Origin: a bacterium
Lineage (GTDB): Bacteria > JAHJDO01
Assembly (NCBI GenBank): GCA_030652805.1
Contig: JAUSPT010000035.1
Coordinates: 1 to 8,878, forward strand
Length of the DNA stretch: 8,878 nt
Direction of reading: 5' to 3'
The notes below the pieces were generated by a model. It saw only the letters and a list, made by a program, of their open reading frames with translations. It was not told where the DNA came from and searched no databases. Each line of letters starts with the position of its first letter. Position 1 is the first letter of the stretch. Of the stretch, positions 2,077 to 8,878 are shown in pieces. The translations under genes were made by a program, and so were the position numbers.

Positions 2077-4164
2077 CTATCCCCCGAATCCCAATAACCT
2101 GCCGCCCTGATATACGATAAACGACGCAACCCAGGCCATAACCGTAGTCCAAAATATCAAGAATAGCGTCCATTTTAAACTAGGCCCTGATTCACGGTAG
2201 AAAACCGCTATCGCCACGAAACAAGGCAGATAGATAAGGCAAAAAATCAGGAAAACCAACGCCTTTAGCGGATTCCAAGACGGATCTTTTTGCAAAGCTT
2301 CCTTTAATGAATCGGTTTCTTCAGGATCAACCTCGCCTAAACTGTATATCGTCCCCATAGTACTGACCACGACTTCCTTTGCCGCTACCCCTGCCATAAG
2401 CGCAACCCCTCCACGCCAATCCATGCCTAAAGGCTTAACAGCGGGCTCGACAAATTTGCCTATCCTGCCGGCATAGCTCTGCTCCATCTGTGCTGAAGCA
2501 GCTGCTTCTTCGCTTGCCCCCTCTTTGGGTTCCTTTTCCGGGAATGTAAAACCCGCCCAAATAATCATGGAAATTAAAAGTATAATTGTTCCTGCTTTTT
2601 TTATGTAAAGCCAACCCCTCTCCCACATTTTTAACAATAAACCCTGAATAGTGGGAATGCGATAAGGCGGAAGCTCCATTACAAAATGCGAGGTTTCGCC
2701 TTTAAAAACAAACTTCTTAAGTATCCATGCCGAAACAAAAGCAATTATGACACTCAAGGCATACATCAAAAACATCATATTTGCTCCATCTTTAGCGGCA
2801 AAAAATGCCCCGATAAACAAAGCAAATATAGGAAGCTTGGCCCCGCAGATCATAAAAGGAGTAACCATCATGGTGATCAAACGGTCCTTTTTATTGTCCA
2901 ACGTCCTGGACGCCATAATTCCGGGCACCGCGCAGCCGTTGGTTGAAATCATCATCGGCAGAAACGATTTTCCATGCAAGCCGAATTTATGCATTATCCT
3001 GTCCATAACAAACGCCGCTCGCGCCATATAACCGGAATCTTCGAAGAACGCGATCGCAAAGAACATAAAGAGCACCAAAGGGAAAAAACCTAAGACCCCG
3101 CCTACCCCGCCAATCACCCCATCAACGATAAATGACTGAGTTAATCCCTCTGGGATAGCGCCGGAGGCAATTTCTCCCGTTTTTTCAAAAAACTTTTCAA
3201 ACCAGCCCACAACCGGTTCGGAGAAGGTAAATGTGAATTTAAAAATAGCATACATCACGGCGGCAAAAATAGGCAACCCTAAAAACCTATTTAAAACTAC
3301 CTTATCAATCTTATCCGAAAGGTCATGCCTTTCCTCAACGCTATGCGTCTGCGCCTCGGTGCAAACGCCACTGATAAACCCGTACCTTCTGTCCGCGATG
3401 ATAACTTCCGGATCATCCGAGAAATGTTTTTTAAGGTGAATCCTGCTTCTTTCAGCCTCTAATAGGAGTGCCGGCCCCCCGGGCAACTGCGCGATAAGCT
3501 TAATTATCCATGGGTCATTCTCCAAAAGCTTAATACCAAGCCACCCAACAGGATATTCATTAGGTAAACTAGGAGCTTTTTTAAATGCCGCCGCTAACTT
3601 TTCAAGCTCTAATTTAACTTCCTCGCCATAATCAACGCCTATCTTTTCTATCTTGCTTTTCCCTTCGCGAAGATCTACCACAGCATTTAATAATTCATTC
3701 ATGCCTTTATTCTTGCTGCCAACCGCAGGGATAACCGGTTTGCCCAATAAACGGGAAATCTCGACATAATTAATTTTAGAACCCCTCTTTTCTACAATAT
3801 CACTCATATTCATTGCCAGAATTATGGGAACCTCAAGCTCCTGTAACTGTGTATATAGGTAAAGATTTCTTTCGAGGTTTGAGGCGTCAACAATATGGAC
3901 GACCATATCCGGCTTCTCTTTAATTATAAAATCACGAGCCACAATTTCGTCTTCTGAATTCGCCGATAAGCTATATGTCCCCGGCAGATCAACAAAGGTT
4001 ATCTCATAATCTTTATAAACGACTCTCCCTTCCTTTTTTTCAACCGTAACTCCCGGGTAATTGCCTACATGCTGATGCGCCCCGGTTAAATTATTGAATA
4101 TCGTTGATTTTCCCGAGTTGGGGTTTCCTGCCAATGCCACCGTCAATTTTCCTTTTGCCGCCAT
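2077..4164 (-). CDS. feoB: Ferrous iron transporter FeoB, full length (695 aa)
   Basis: Inner-membrane Fe2+ permease with a cytosolic GTPase. The G domain shows G1 GNPNSGKS (13-20), T40 for G2, G3 DLPG (59-62), G4 NMSD (119-122) and a G5 loop near VGSKNKG (148-154). A helical GDI-type region spans roughly 170-290, including ADRRYGFI. The membrane part follows, with two gate-like halves. Conserved landmarks are NGCAVPGIMASR (C411), PFMICGAKLP (C440), the AGVAAKEVVVSTMGTIY stretch (591-607) and LPCFVAIAVFYRE (C648). An acidic, Ala/Glu-rich insert at 541-562 is probably periplasmic or loop. Length is usual for the family (about 650-800). Its start lies one base past the stop of feoA, with GGGAGGAA inside the feoA end as ribosome-binding site. 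It should share the DtxR-box-controlled promoter near 4660. Confidence 0.97.
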   Translation of the reverse strand: MAAKGKLTVALAGNPNSGKSTIFNNLTGAHQHVGNYPGVTVEKKEGRVVYKDYEITFVDLPGTYSLSANSEDEIVARDFIIKEKPDMVVHIVDASNLERNLYLYTQLQELEVPIILAMNMSDIVEKRGSKINYVEISRLLGKPVIPAVGSKNKGMNELLNAVVDLREGKSKIEKIGVDYGEEVKLELEKLAAAFKKAPSLPNEYPVGWLGIKLLENDPWIIKLIAQLPGGPALLLEAERSRIHLKKHFSDDPEVIIADRRYGFISGVCTEAQTHSVEERHDLSDKIDKVVLNRFLGLPIFAAVMYAIFKFTFTFSEPVVGWFEKFFEKTGEIASGAIPEGLTQSFIVDGVIGGVGGVLGFFPLVLFMFFAIAFFEDSGYMARAAFVMDRIMHKFGLHGKSFLPMMISTNGCAVPGIMASRTLDNKKDRLITMMVTPFMICGAKLPIFALFIGAFFAAKDGANMMFLMYALSVIIAFVSAWILKKFVFKGETSHFVMELPPYRIPTIQGLLLKMWERGWLYIKKAGTIILLISMIIWAGFTFPEKEPKEGASEEAAASAQMEQSYAGRIGKFVEPAVKPLGMDWRGGVALMAGVAAKEVVVSTMGTIYSLGEVDPEETDSLKEALQKDPSWNPLKALVFLIFCLIYLPCFVAIAVFYRESGPSLKWTLFLIFWTTVMAWVASFIVYQGGRLLGFGG

Positions 4165-4165
4165 T

Positions 4166-4390
4166 TTATTCCTCCCTAACGATTATTTTTTGGGCTAATC
4201 CATGCCCGATAGATAATTTAGAACCCTTCACGCAAACCGTAACCGGCCCGGCTCCGCTATTATGCAACATCGTTAATCTCTCACCCGGTAAAAGTCCAAG
4301 TTCCGCCAACCTGTGACTCGCGCCTTTTCCTCCCTGAATGAAAACAATAGCCGCCGCGCATCCCGAATTAATATCGCACAAGCTTTTCAT
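4166..4390 (-). CDS. feoA: FeoA protein, second in tandem (74 aa)
   Basis: A small SH3-like cytosolic protein that associates with FeoB and supports Fe2+ uptake. Family features are present: RLAELGLLPGERLTML (27-42) and the closing strand CVKGSKLSIGHGLAQKIIV. C5 and C11 near the N-terminus are not typical of all FeoA. It starts two bases after the stop of the preceding feoA and ends one base before feoB, so the three are almost certainly translated as a coupled set. It differs considerably from the upstream FeoA, so the pair is not a recent duplication and may have split roles, for example one binding FeoB and one binding another partner. Confidence 0.93.
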   Translation of the reverse strand: MKSLCDINSGCAAAIVFIQGGKGASHRLAELGLLPGERLTMLHNSGAGPVTVCVKGSKLSIGHGLAQKIIVREE

Positions 4391-4392
4391 AT

Positions 4393-4629
4393 TTATATAA
4401 CCTCAATACTAATTTGTTTTGCTTCTTCTTTTCTTAAAGACAAATTATATCCTTTGATTCTCACCTCCACAGGATCTCCAAATGGAGCCACCCTAATAAC
4501 CTCCAGATTACTCCCCGGTACAATCCCCATATCTAAGAGTTTTCTTTTAAGCTGGCCTTGTCCGCTTACCTGCTTAACCTTTCCTTTGCTATGTGCCTTC
4601 AAATCACTTAAAGCTTTAATCTGACTCAT
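4393..4629 (-). CDS. feoA: FeoA protein, first in tandem (78 aa)
   Basis: An SH3-like FeoA with the usual order: LSDLKAHSKGKVKQV, then KRKLLDMGIVPGSNLEVI (residues 28-45), then PVEVRIKGYNLSLRKEEAKQI. It lacks cysteine, unlike its downstream partner. An AAGGGGGG stretch seven or so bases before the ATG is a good ribosome-binding site. It is the first gene after the DtxR-type palindrome at 4653-4680 and thus the likely first cistron of the feoA-feoA-feoB-Cys-protein unit, although read-through from the regulator gene 63 nt upstream is also possible. Confidence 0.94.
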   Translation of the reverse strand: MSQIKALSDLKAHSKGKVKQVSGQGQLKRKLLDMGIVPGSNLEVIRVAPFGDPVEVRIKGYNLSLRKEEAKQISIEVI

Positions 4630-4652
4630 AAATCCCCCCTTTTAGCTATCTC

Positions 4653-4680
4653 CAATAAGTTAGTCTTGTCTAACTTATTG
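4653..4680 (-). promoter_or_regulatory. DtxR/MntR-type operator before feoA
   Basis: A perfect 11-bp inverted repeat, CAATAAGTTAG and its complement CTAACTTATTG, separated by 6 nt. The minus-strand core is GTTAGACAAGACTAAC. The same core occurs before the regulator gene at 5175-5202. Size and shape match known DtxR/MntR/IdeR boxes. Binding here would cover the -10 element and spacer of the promoter described at 4657-4685 and so repress the feo genes when metal is plentiful. Confidence 0.8.
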
Positions 4681-4685
4681 AACAA
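4657..4685 (-). promoter_or_regulatory. Possible sigma-70 promoter of the feo operon
   Basis: TTGTTC (4680-4685) and TAACTT (4657-4662) are separated by 17 nt on the minus strand. The -35 matches consensus at three of six bases and the -10 at four of six, so it is weak. The palindrome overlaps it almost fully, which is the main support. Distance from the -10 to the feoA start is about 27 nt. Confidence 0.4.
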
Positions 4686-4692
4686 AAAAATA

Positions 4693-5145
4693 TTACCCGC
4701 GCTTACTCATGGTTTTCTCCTTACCCTTGCTCATATCCTGTCTGTTAAATTCAGGGCAGCGTTCAACATGTTTAATAAACTTTATCAGCTTCTCCAAAGT
4801 TACCTGGCTAATAGAATGTTCCATTTTACAGGCATCATCTTGCGCTGTATTTTTCCCCACCTTCAATATGTTGGACAAAAATCTAAAAAGTGTATTGTGC
4901 TTCTGCTGAACGCCGCTTGCCAGCCTCTTGCCTTCAACCGTCAGCTCCGCAGCCCCGTATCTTTCGTGCACAACAAGCCCGCTTCTGGCAAGAGTAACTA
5001 AAGCGGAATTGACGCTAGAATTCTTGACGCACAAAAGCTTGCTGATATCATTTACACGAGCAACGCCTTTTTCTCTTTTTAGAAACGCTATCCCCTCAAG
5101 GTAATCTTCCATATTGGAGCTTATTTTCTTTACCTCAACGCTCAT
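4693..5145 (-). CDS. DtxR/MntR-family metal-dependent repressor (150 aa)
   Basis: A cytosolic DNA-binding regulator. Residues 10-70 form the winged helix-turn-helix, beginning NMEDYLEGIAFL and including RVNDISKLLCVKNSSVNSAL. Residues 75-135 form the dimerisation/metal domain. Aligning by eye to B. subtilis MntR, D14 and E17 match its D8 and E11, H83 matches H77, and the motif DDACKMEHSIS puts C106, E109 and H110 at its E99, E102 and H103. Cysteine at the first of these positions is the DtxR/IdeR (iron) state rather than the MntR (manganese) state. The protein lacks the C-terminal SH3 domain of DtxR, matching MntR in length. Its own promoter overlaps a matching palindrome, and a second palindrome precedes feoA, so it very probably represses itself and the feo genes, most likely in response to Fe2+. 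Confidence 0.9.
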   Translation of the reverse strand: MSVEVKKISSNMEDYLEGIAFLKREKGVARVNDISKLLCVKNSSVNSALVTLARSGLVVHERYGAAELTVEGKRLASGVQQKHNTLFRFLSNILKVGKNTAQDDACKMEHSISQVTLEKLIKFIKHVERCPEFNRQDMSKGKEKTMSKRG

Positions 5146-6985: not shown

Positions 6986-8701
6986 TTATAGTATGAAATT
7001 AAGCAACATCCCAATCAGTAACGCAACCACAATCATAATCGCCGTACTTTTGAGTGTATCTTTTATTCCCAATTCTCTGATTAAAACTACATAAGTGGCA
7101 ATACAGGGAAAATAAACCGCTAATATCGTAGAGCCAACTACTAATTGCTTAGTGGTCAGATTAAGCGGCCCAAGCATGCCTACAGCAAGGTCTTTTCTTA
7201 AAAACCCAACTACTAAAGCAGAGATAGCTTCCTTAGGAAGCCCCCATAGCCCGGTCAGAACAGGAGTAAAGATATACGCAAAGAAATCTATTATTCTTAG
7301 CATGTAGAGAATGTTCACAAAAAGCACTCCCAAAAGCACAAAAGGCAGGGCCTCCTTTAAAAAACCGGATAAACGCATCCAAAGTTTCTTAACCACCGAT
7401 TGGATTTGAGGTATCCGATAAGGAGGAATTTCAACTAATATTTCAGGGCTTACTCCTTTTAAAATCCTATTTAAAATTAAACCCTTAACTACTAACAGGA
7501 CAAAAAGAGTAAAAAATATAATCGCTACGTATTTACCTCCTCTTTGCCCCACCAATCCCACAATCATGGCGATTTGCGCCATACAGGGAATACCAACTGC
7601 CATTAAAGTGATAGCGATAAATTTCTCACGCCTTTCTTCTAAAAGCCGAGTAGCTAAGATACCAGGAACTTTACAACCTAAACCTAAAATGAAAGGAATT
7701 ATCGCATATCCGTGTAGACCTAAATGATGCATAAAATTATCTGTCAAAACCGCCAAGCGAGGAAGATATCCTAAATCCTCCAAAAATCCTAATACAAGAT
7801 AAAAACTAAATATATAAGGCAACACCATGGCAATCGGGACATAGAGGCCTGTGGTTAAAAGACCAAAAGACTGGCCAAAATCTATTTTACTTTTTATAAA
7901 ATTACCGATAAGGATATGATGTAAAAAACTCCCCTCAACCAAAAATGCACTTAATTTCATCAACAAAGACAACCATAATTTTGTAAATAAGGGCTCAAAT
8001 ATATGCCCAATTAGATTCTCCCCAACAAAACGAACTGCCCAAAAGGAACAATATATAATACCTAAGGCAATAGGCAACCCGGTGAGCGGTTTAATACTTA
8101 AATCTTCTAGTCTTTCTAACAAAGTGTGGTGGCGATGGGTTAATTTCTGAGCTTCTTCTAAAATCTCGCCTATTTTTTCCCATTTCTGGTTATCAGAAGA
8201 GGCAGATAAATCTCTTGCCTTTGTTTCTGGCAAACGATCGATTAGTTCTTTGATGCCCTCTCCGGTTAAACCGCAGGTAGGGATTACTGGCACCCCTAAC
8301 TCTTCTTCTAATTTTTTAATATCAATATAAATCCCCCTATGCTTGGTATCATCCCACATATTCAAAGCTACAATAAGCGGCATACCTTTTTCCAAAAGCT
8401 GTAAGGTTAAATGAAGATTCCTCTCTAAATTCGTGGCATCAATAATATTAATCACTAAACCACCTTCTTTTACCATCCGGCAAGCCACGTCTTCGGCTTT
8501 GCAAGTCGGCTCTAAAGTATATGTTCCCGGCACATCGATGATCATTACTGTTTCATCACCAAGCTTCATTTTGCCCTGGGTAAACTCTACTGTTGTTCCG
8601 GGATAATTAGAAATTATTACTTTTGCTCCGGTAAGCCTGGAAAATATGGCGCTCTTGCCGACGTTGGGATTACCGATTAACAAAATCTTTTCTATCTTCA
8701 C
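6986..8701 (-). CDS. feoB: Short divergent FeoB-family transporter (571 aa)
   Basis: A second FeoB-like GTPase permease. The G domain has G1 GNPNVGKS (10-17), NYPGTT (T37 for G2), G3 DVPG (56-59), G4 NMWD (114-117) and a G5 loop near CGLTG. The helical GDI region is nearly absent: after residue 160 only about 45 residues precede the first membrane segment, versus about 130 in the neighbouring FeoB. Membrane landmarks are GFLEDLGYLPRLAVLTD, GLGCKVPGILATR (C343), GIPCMAQIAM (C373) and VYFPCIATYV (C533). The canonical AAKE motif is replaced by LRKD (501-504). The start is GTG; AGAAGG lies about 9 nt upstream and an in-frame TAA is close behind. That site is inside a strong inverted repeat. Substrate could be Fe2+ or another divalent metal such as Mn2+; family membership is firm, the substrate is not. 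Confidence 0.92.
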   Translation of the reverse strand: MKIEKILLIGNPNVGKSAIFSRLTGAKVIISNYPGTTVEFTQGKMKLGDETVMIIDVPGTYTLEPTCKAEDVACRMVKEGGLVINIIDATNLERNLHLTLQLLEKGMPLIVALNMWDDTKHRGIYIDIKKLEEELGVPVIPTCGLTGEGIKELIDRLPETKARDLSASSDNQKWEKIGEILEEAQKLTHRHHTLLERLEDLSIKPLTGLPIALGIIYCSFWAVRFVGENLIGHIFEPLFTKLWLSLLMKLSAFLVEGSFLHHILIGNFIKSKIDFGQSFGLLTTGLYVPIAMVLPYIFSFYLVLGFLEDLGYLPRLAVLTDNFMHHLGLHGYAIIPFILGLGCKVPGILATRLLEERREKFIAITLMAVGIPCMAQIAMIVGLVGQRGGKYVAIIFFTLFVLLVVKGLILNRILKGVSPEILVEIPPYRIPQIQSVVKKLWMRLSGFLKEALPFVLLGVLFVNILYMLRIIDFFAYIFTPVLTGLWGLPKEAISALVVGFLRKDLAVGMLGPLNLTTKQLVVGSTILAVYFPCIATYVVLIRELGIKDTLKSTAIMIVVALLIGMLLNFIL

Positions 8702-8796
8702 CCCGCACCTTCTCTCTTATTAATAATTATTTTTATAACCCATGCCTTCTAACACTTCAGTTCTTTAAGTTCCCTGAATATATAGAAGGTGCGGGG
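8701..8796 (-). promoter_or_regulatory. Leader hairpin burying the ribosome-binding site of the short feoB
   Basis: On the minus strand CCCCGCACCTTCT (8784-8796), beginning two bases after the feoA stop codon, is perfectly complementary over 13 bp to AGAAGGTGCGGGG (8701-8713). The latter contains the Shine-Dalgarno AGAAGG and the G of the GTG start. Between them are 70 nt with an inner 5-bp stem TTCAG/CTGAA (8774-8778 and 8756-8760). A second TAGAAGG at 8745-8751 could pair with CCTTCTA of the first arm instead, giving two exclusive folds. There is no U-tract, so control would be of translation, not termination. Confidence 0.65.
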
Positions 8797-8797
8797 T

Positions 8798-8878
8798 TCA
8801 TCTTTTGACTTCCACTAGGATTAATTTGGCCATACCAAAGCCAACTGCGATCTGTATATTGCCTACTTCTACTGTCTG
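8798..8878 (-). CDS. feoA: FeoA-like protein, C-terminal fragment (5' end off window)
   Basis: The last 26 codons of a gene entering from the right edge and ending in TGA at 8798-8800. The visible end, NIQIAVGFGMAKLILVEVKR, lines up with the final strand of the FeoA fold; compare KGSKLSIGHGLAQKIIV in the FeoA at 4166. The Gly-x-Gly-hydrophobic-Ala-x-x-Ile-x-Val pattern is shared. Position directly before a feoB gene supports the call. Most of the protein lies outside the window, so a larger protein ending in a FeoA domain cannot be excluded. It is separated from feoB by the 97-nt leader with the inverted repeat. Confidence 0.72.
   Translation of the reverse strand, partial: QTVEVGNIQIAVGFGMAKLILVEVKR

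Follow-up and report, generated by a model that had tools for sequence, protein, structure and literature searches.

Translational coupling to a leader open reading frame (ORF) can open hairpins that sequester a ribosome-binding site (RBS): translation upstream frees the masked RBS, and the upstream stop overlaps the next start. Among dispersed bacterial repeats, the Correia elements (NEMIS) of Neisseria resemble the element analyzed here in being short and non-autonomous, with terminal inverted repeats, target duplication, a co-transcribed hairpin, and many dispersed copies, but their termini carry TA, their paired terminal inverted repeats measure 24 bp, and cleavage by RNase III is the RNA effect documented for them (PMC2229807, PMC10969869). 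Rickettsia palindromic elements are likewise palindromic and encode a conserved peptide, nearly half of them lying within genes that still work (PMC10969869, PMC2229807), but they form in-frame fusions inside ORFs, whereas here a leader ends before the gene, the element restarts the gene, and the protein is unchanged. ERIC shares with our element a MITE-like character, open frames, and an mRNA structure affecting neighboring transcripts but has TA ends and a length of 127 bp, and the passages found on it make no mention of start-codon residence (PMC2229807). REPINs, inverted palindrome pairs that form hairpins and occur in many copies per genome, are moved by the Y1 transposase RAYT (PMC3116915), whereas we found 4-bp target duplications and no tagged Y1 gene. 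Two reviews of bacterial MITEs that we searched make no mention of start codons (PMC10969869, PMC2229807). We found no description of a start-codon-resident bacterial MITE, and residence at start codons with a rebuilt RBS appears to be undescribed in the literature searched, subscription journals lying outside the search.

The window analyzed, i.e., the whole stretch of DNA, was a contig of 8,878 bp. Between feoA and a short feoB, it contained two 14-nt arms (8700 to 8713 and 8784 to 8797) that were 100% complementary and separated by 70 nt; 13 of the 14 pairs were those of the element arms (8701 to 8713 and 8784 to 8796), and the 14th came from flanking TGAA repeats. On the minus strand, the feoA stop TGA (8798 to 8800) was directly followed by ACCCCGCACCTTCT, with the 5' arm one base past the TGA, and AGAAGGTGCGGGG, 70 nt past this arm, led into the GTG (8699 to 8701) of the 571-amino-acid FeoB; the 3' arm contained both the Shine-Dalgarno (SD) sequence and the first G of the start. 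The minimum free energy of the hairpin was −34.1 kcal/mol, compared to −16.7 ± 2.7 kcal/mol for dinucleotide shuffles (z = −6.5), none of 200 shuffles being equally stable. A preliminary description of this DNA had placed a perfect 13-bp inverted repeat at 8701 to 8796, and its coordinates were exact and its perfect complementarity was confirmed. Masking of the feoB RBS and start codon by one arm, which it had also proposed, was borne out by folding (predicted mean P[unpaired] of SD and start, 0.07), and the competing inner TAGAAGG (8745 to 8751), with its alternative pairing, and an inner TTCAG/CTGAA stem were both found as described. The inner competitor (TAGAAGGCATGGG) resembles the 3' end of the element itself, of which it appears to be a degenerate copy. 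That the structure fits no known riboswitch class agreed with our Rfam 15 search of the whole window, which returned 0 matches to any family at the gathering score.

Relatives were obtained from an FeoB scan of GTDB genomes, and the close ones were mostly Candidatus Omnitrophota. At four loci (L045, L046, L047, and L049; 83 to 88% FeoB identity), there was no gap, the feoA stop overlapping the feoB ATG by 4 nt (AG-ATGA-AGATAG; empty-site sequence, ATGAAGATAG), and L048 likewise lacked a feoA-feoB gap. In the window and in L044 (90% FeoB identity), the site read AAAAGA-TGAA-(CCCCGC ... GCGGGG)-TGAA-GATAG, an insertion of 96 bp flanked by the duplicated 4-bp target TGAA, and these 100 bp as a whole were absent from relatives without the insertion. 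The start was thereby changed from ATG-AAG to (G)GTG-AAG, with the G derived from the element and TG from the duplicated target. Among the Omnitrophota feoB loci read, this insertion was common only to the window and L044. Locus L060 (72%) carried a different element (CCCCGTTAGACCT...AGGTCTAACGGGG, around 2945 to 3000) between TGAA repeats at the same feoB start; this start has therefore been struck at least twice by related elements. In the relatives collected first, from the genus of the bin and from distant genomes, feoA-feoB gaps were mostly short or different. A 14-bp AU-rich pairing was seen in the gap at locus L011.

Judged from these junctions, the feoA-feoB hairpin is a mobile repeat inserted exactly at the feoB start codon; because its family occupies the start codons of many genes in related bacteria (see below), it is not an RNA switch specific to iron. 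The element, which is MITE-like, 96 bp long, and bounded by perfect 13-bp terminal inverted repeats, entered the TGAA of AAAAG-ATGAAG and duplicated it, and its 3' end (SD AGAAGG and final G) together with the duplicated TGAA rebuilt RBS-GGG-GTG-AAG. The FeoB protein sequence is unchanged because element and duplication rebuild RBS and start. A MITE-like insertion that rebuilt the feoB start, supplied an RBS hairpin, and left feoB coupled to feoA without ligand sensing is, in our estimate, the best explanation as a whole (probability of about 0.8). Coordinates are given in Table 1.

Table 1. Positions in the window of features at the feoA-feoB junction
Feature	Position	Strand	Basis
Inserted element, 96 bp, CCCCGCACCTTCT ... 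AGAAGGTGCGGGG	8701..8796	-	Absent from L045-L049, present in L044; dispersed family
5' terminal inverted repeat CCCCGCACCTTCT; leader ORF codons 2-6; anti-RBS arm	8784..8796	-	Sequence
3' terminal inverted repeat AGAAGGTGCGGGG, with SD and first G of feoB GTG	8701..8713	-	Sequence
Shine-Dalgarno AGAAGG, 6 nt 5' of GTG, element-supplied	8708..8713	-	Sequence
TGAA, upstream copy of target-site duplication, contains feoA stop TGA	8797..8800	-	Sequence; L045-L047 and L049 have the empty site ATGAAG
TGAA, downstream copy of target-site duplication, gives TG of feoB GTG	8697..8700	-	Sequence; relatives' junctions
Leader ORF from native feoB ATG, MNPAPSIYSGNLKN then stop, 14 aa, crosses 5' arm	8757..8801	-	Sequence
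Inner degenerate 3'-end copy AGAAGGCATGGGT, competing arm	8738..8750	-	Sequence; other elements have similar inner copies
Inner TTCAG/CTGAA stem	8756..8778	-	Sequence and fold
Short feoB, 571 aa, present start GTG	6986..8701	-	Pfam FeoB_N, Gate, FeoB_C
feoA 3' end, runs off contig end	8798..8878	-	91% DNA identity to L044 feoA end

Pattern searches of Omnitrophota genomes returned many elements with ends ACCCCG...CGGGGT flanked by TGAA, TAAA, TTGA, or complements; the family as a whole has ends CCCCG...CGGGG and 4-bp duplications, mostly TNNA. G059, the genome of L044, contained about 70 exact 3' ends. When 350, 274, and 335 kb of three genomes were scanned blind, with perfect inverted repeats and an exact 4-bp direct repeat as sole criteria, CCCCG stood at the start of 22 of 27, 11 of 11, and 6 of 7 matches, the repeats again being mostly TNNA. 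The exact 16-mer GAAGGTGCGGGGTGAA was present in 28 of 108 genomes of G059's family (reversed-pattern control, 0 of 108). Analyzed copies measured 45 to 193 bp (96 bp in the window), without transposase coding capacity. The element thus has the features of a MITE, namely, short length, terminal inverted repeats, target-site duplication with empty sites, and multiple dispersed copies. An autonomous partner was found neither in 350 kb of G059, where searching for paired ends within 3.5 kb gave no credible copy, nor via two candidate mobilizers: matches to an IS1380-type transposase (PF13701) were weak or contig-edge fragments without element ends, and Y1 transposases (PF01797, Y1_Tnp) were ubiquitous in the family, without matching ends beside the genes examined. 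In some G059 copies (L196, 9361 to 9490; L198-L199; L200), another palindrome (ACAGGGGACGGTTCTC...GAGAACCGTCCCCG), which is a different dispersed repeat, was nested within the element. Head-to-tail stacking of elements at a single start codon was also seen in G059 (C7:55827, C10:39439, C13:24939, and C29:12208; L183, L191, L195, and L198), where the GTGAA or TAAA that one copy had rebuilt served as the insertion site of the next.

A mobile element would be expected to stay away from gene starts or to disrupt them; this family in Omnitrophota resides almost exclusively on start codons, those of essential genes included. In 350 kb of G059, the 3' end lay exactly on an ORF start at 26 of the 28 loci that had two intact ends, as counted by reading the locus listing, and the remaining 2 elements lay a few codons inside tmk-like genes. 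The start-resident genes included rpsJ, rpmC, rpmJ, murE, aroK, rpiB, and the trigger-factor gene (names inferred from N termini). In the same 350 kb, TGA[AG] occurred 105 times at the start of an ORF and 418 times outside ORFs, and the non-disruptive chance expectation is therefore about 20% at starts. All 40 copies from 14 further genomes, a set picked by TGAA after the 3' end and thus favoring starts, began genes, and nearly all retained the native ATGA upstream. When the flanks of six G059 genes were joined and compared with relatives, genome G064 had continuous empty sites for five (rpsJ, murE, and the tsaB-like, kdsD-like, and pgsA-like genes). At rpmC (L313, about 1600 to 1700), G064 had another insert of ~60 bp at the start where G059 has its element. 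In the stretches scanned, subfamilies without an SD in the arms (TTAGACCCAG, TTAGAGGCAGG, and CTCCCCG) occupied TAAA/TTTA sites away from starts, whereas most copies of another SD-bearing subfamily (TTAGACCTC, in G060) were on starts. Residence on starts is possible because the element end carries an SD and part of the start codon, and it probably reflects TNNA target choice combined with survival of SD-bearing copies only where a working start was rebuilt; start codons may also be its specific target. The family shows how a transposable repeat can come to serve many genes as a standard 5' untranslated region, and the filled and empty sites are natural matched pairs for testing hairpin-gated translation.

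In the full mRNA, the element ends are predicted to pair and bury the new RBS; with the 5' arm occupied as by a ribosome, the modeled mean P(unpaired) from SD to start rose from 0.07 to 0.75. A leader (MNPAPS...) begins at the retained native ATG and has the 5' arm as its first codons; in 27 of 60 copies this leader ran exactly to the TGA overlapping the new start (MNPAPS...NKKEGAG, then stop). Of the in-frame copies, 27 of 32 were open to the overlapping TGA, compared to 4.9 ± 1.9 in shuffles, and after clustering, leaders were open in 10 of 13, compared to 2.1 ± 1.3; the in-frame excess after clustering was not significant (13 of 30; P = 0.17). A reverse frame was equally open (10 of 13) and the element is partly symmetric, which confounds the test for leader selection, and we hold coding selection on the leader ORF with no more than moderate confidence. 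In nearly all copies, the leader stopped before or at the new start, leaving the host N terminus unchanged. The leader in the window was shorter than the full form (MNPAPS...KKEGAG) and out of frame with the overlap, yet it crosses the 5' arm. A ribosome ending feoA, or one translating the leader from the native ATG through the 5' arm, would open the stem, and in the window a ribosome stopped at the feoA TGA would also cover that arm. Translation of the feoA end and leader thus most likely keeps feoB translatable, and feoB would stay coupled to feoA translation, with no ligand sensed by the element. The likeness to leader-ORF coupling is a modeled one, and the arrangement would here be delivered by a mobile repeat and not evolved at one gene. 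It is conceivable, though we would sooner doubt it, that the family forms a mobile translation-start cassette that targets start codons (ATGA), replaces the native RBS with a hairpin-gated one opened by its own leader, and has in this way brought dozens of genes in each genome, some of them encoding ribosomal proteins, under a common translational coupling or control.

The preliminary description had presented the hairpin as a candidate switch setting FeoB apart from FeoA. A dedicated cis-acting RNA switch, responsive to metal, temperature, or FeoA and evolved between feoA and feoB, would account for the stable RBS-sequestering stem with its alternative pairing and for a copy unusually conserved between two species, but we regard it as very improbable: the structure is an insertion with empty sites and target duplication, which refutes this reading as to origin, the same element belongs to a dispersed family at the starts of unrelated genes, no Rfam family matched, and there was no link to iron. 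Metal or temperature sensing by the hairpin finds no support. Relatives without the complementary arm had been named beforehand as evidence against a switch, and the close relatives indeed lacked arm and gap, except the nearest, L044, which shares the insertion; because only L044 has this element and L060 has a different one, a switch is not conserved at orthologous feo loci. Covariation of the arms, which had been suggested as a check, was rejected as confounded, since terminal inverted repeats must match as DNA and the test would mislead. Such complementarity can pass for RNA covariation, and an inverted repeat that sequesters an RBS next to a metal-transport gene can be an insertion. Movement as a REPIN/REP element by a Y1 (RAYT) transposase is better placed, if still unlikely; the element is palindromic and dispersed and Y1 transposases are common in the family, but 4-bp target duplications are unexpected for Y1 transposition, several carriers (G078, G091, G095, and G098) had no Y1 match, though bins are incomplete, and no such ends lay beside the Y1 genes examined.

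Within the insertion reading, the MITE-derived hairpin may since have been exapted, being retained now because FeoB translation is thereby reduced, or timed, relative to that of FeoA; we consider this a minority possibility. The elements of the window and L044 were identical at 94 of 98 positions, with none of the 4 differences in the arms, whereas feoB third codon positions were 75% identical (binomial P of about 3 × 10^−8; P = 0.006 against the overall DNA divergence of 12%). A purely passive insertion would not predict such identity, which therefore counts against it and hints, from one species pair, at constraint on the element after insertion and a sequence that may have become useful. 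Against exaptation, the 3' arm is constrained anyway as an RBS, P is only 0.006 against overall divergence, and late exchange of the segment is a possible alternative source of the identity.

An assembly or binning artefact would fit a window that is a whole short contig, possibly misbinned, whose short FeoB was 90% identical to that of an Omnitrophota genome and 58% identical to the other short FeoB of its bin, G000 (contig C74), but we give it hardly any weight, as the same junctions occur in the independent assembly of L044 and the junction structure recurs in many genomes. From these identities, the contig may have been misbinned or the region transferred. Either would explain why a search of G000 found a single copy of the element, that in the window. 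For each FeoB protein of the window, the bin contained a second copy that was quite different (58% and 55%). The FeoB_Cyto helical domain was matched in the long FeoB of the window but not in the short one. The long FeoB belongs to a second feo set on the minus strand (2077 to 5145), which comprises a DtxR/MntR-type regulator (Fe_dep_repress), two tandem FeoA proteins, and a full-length FeoB of 695 amino acids.
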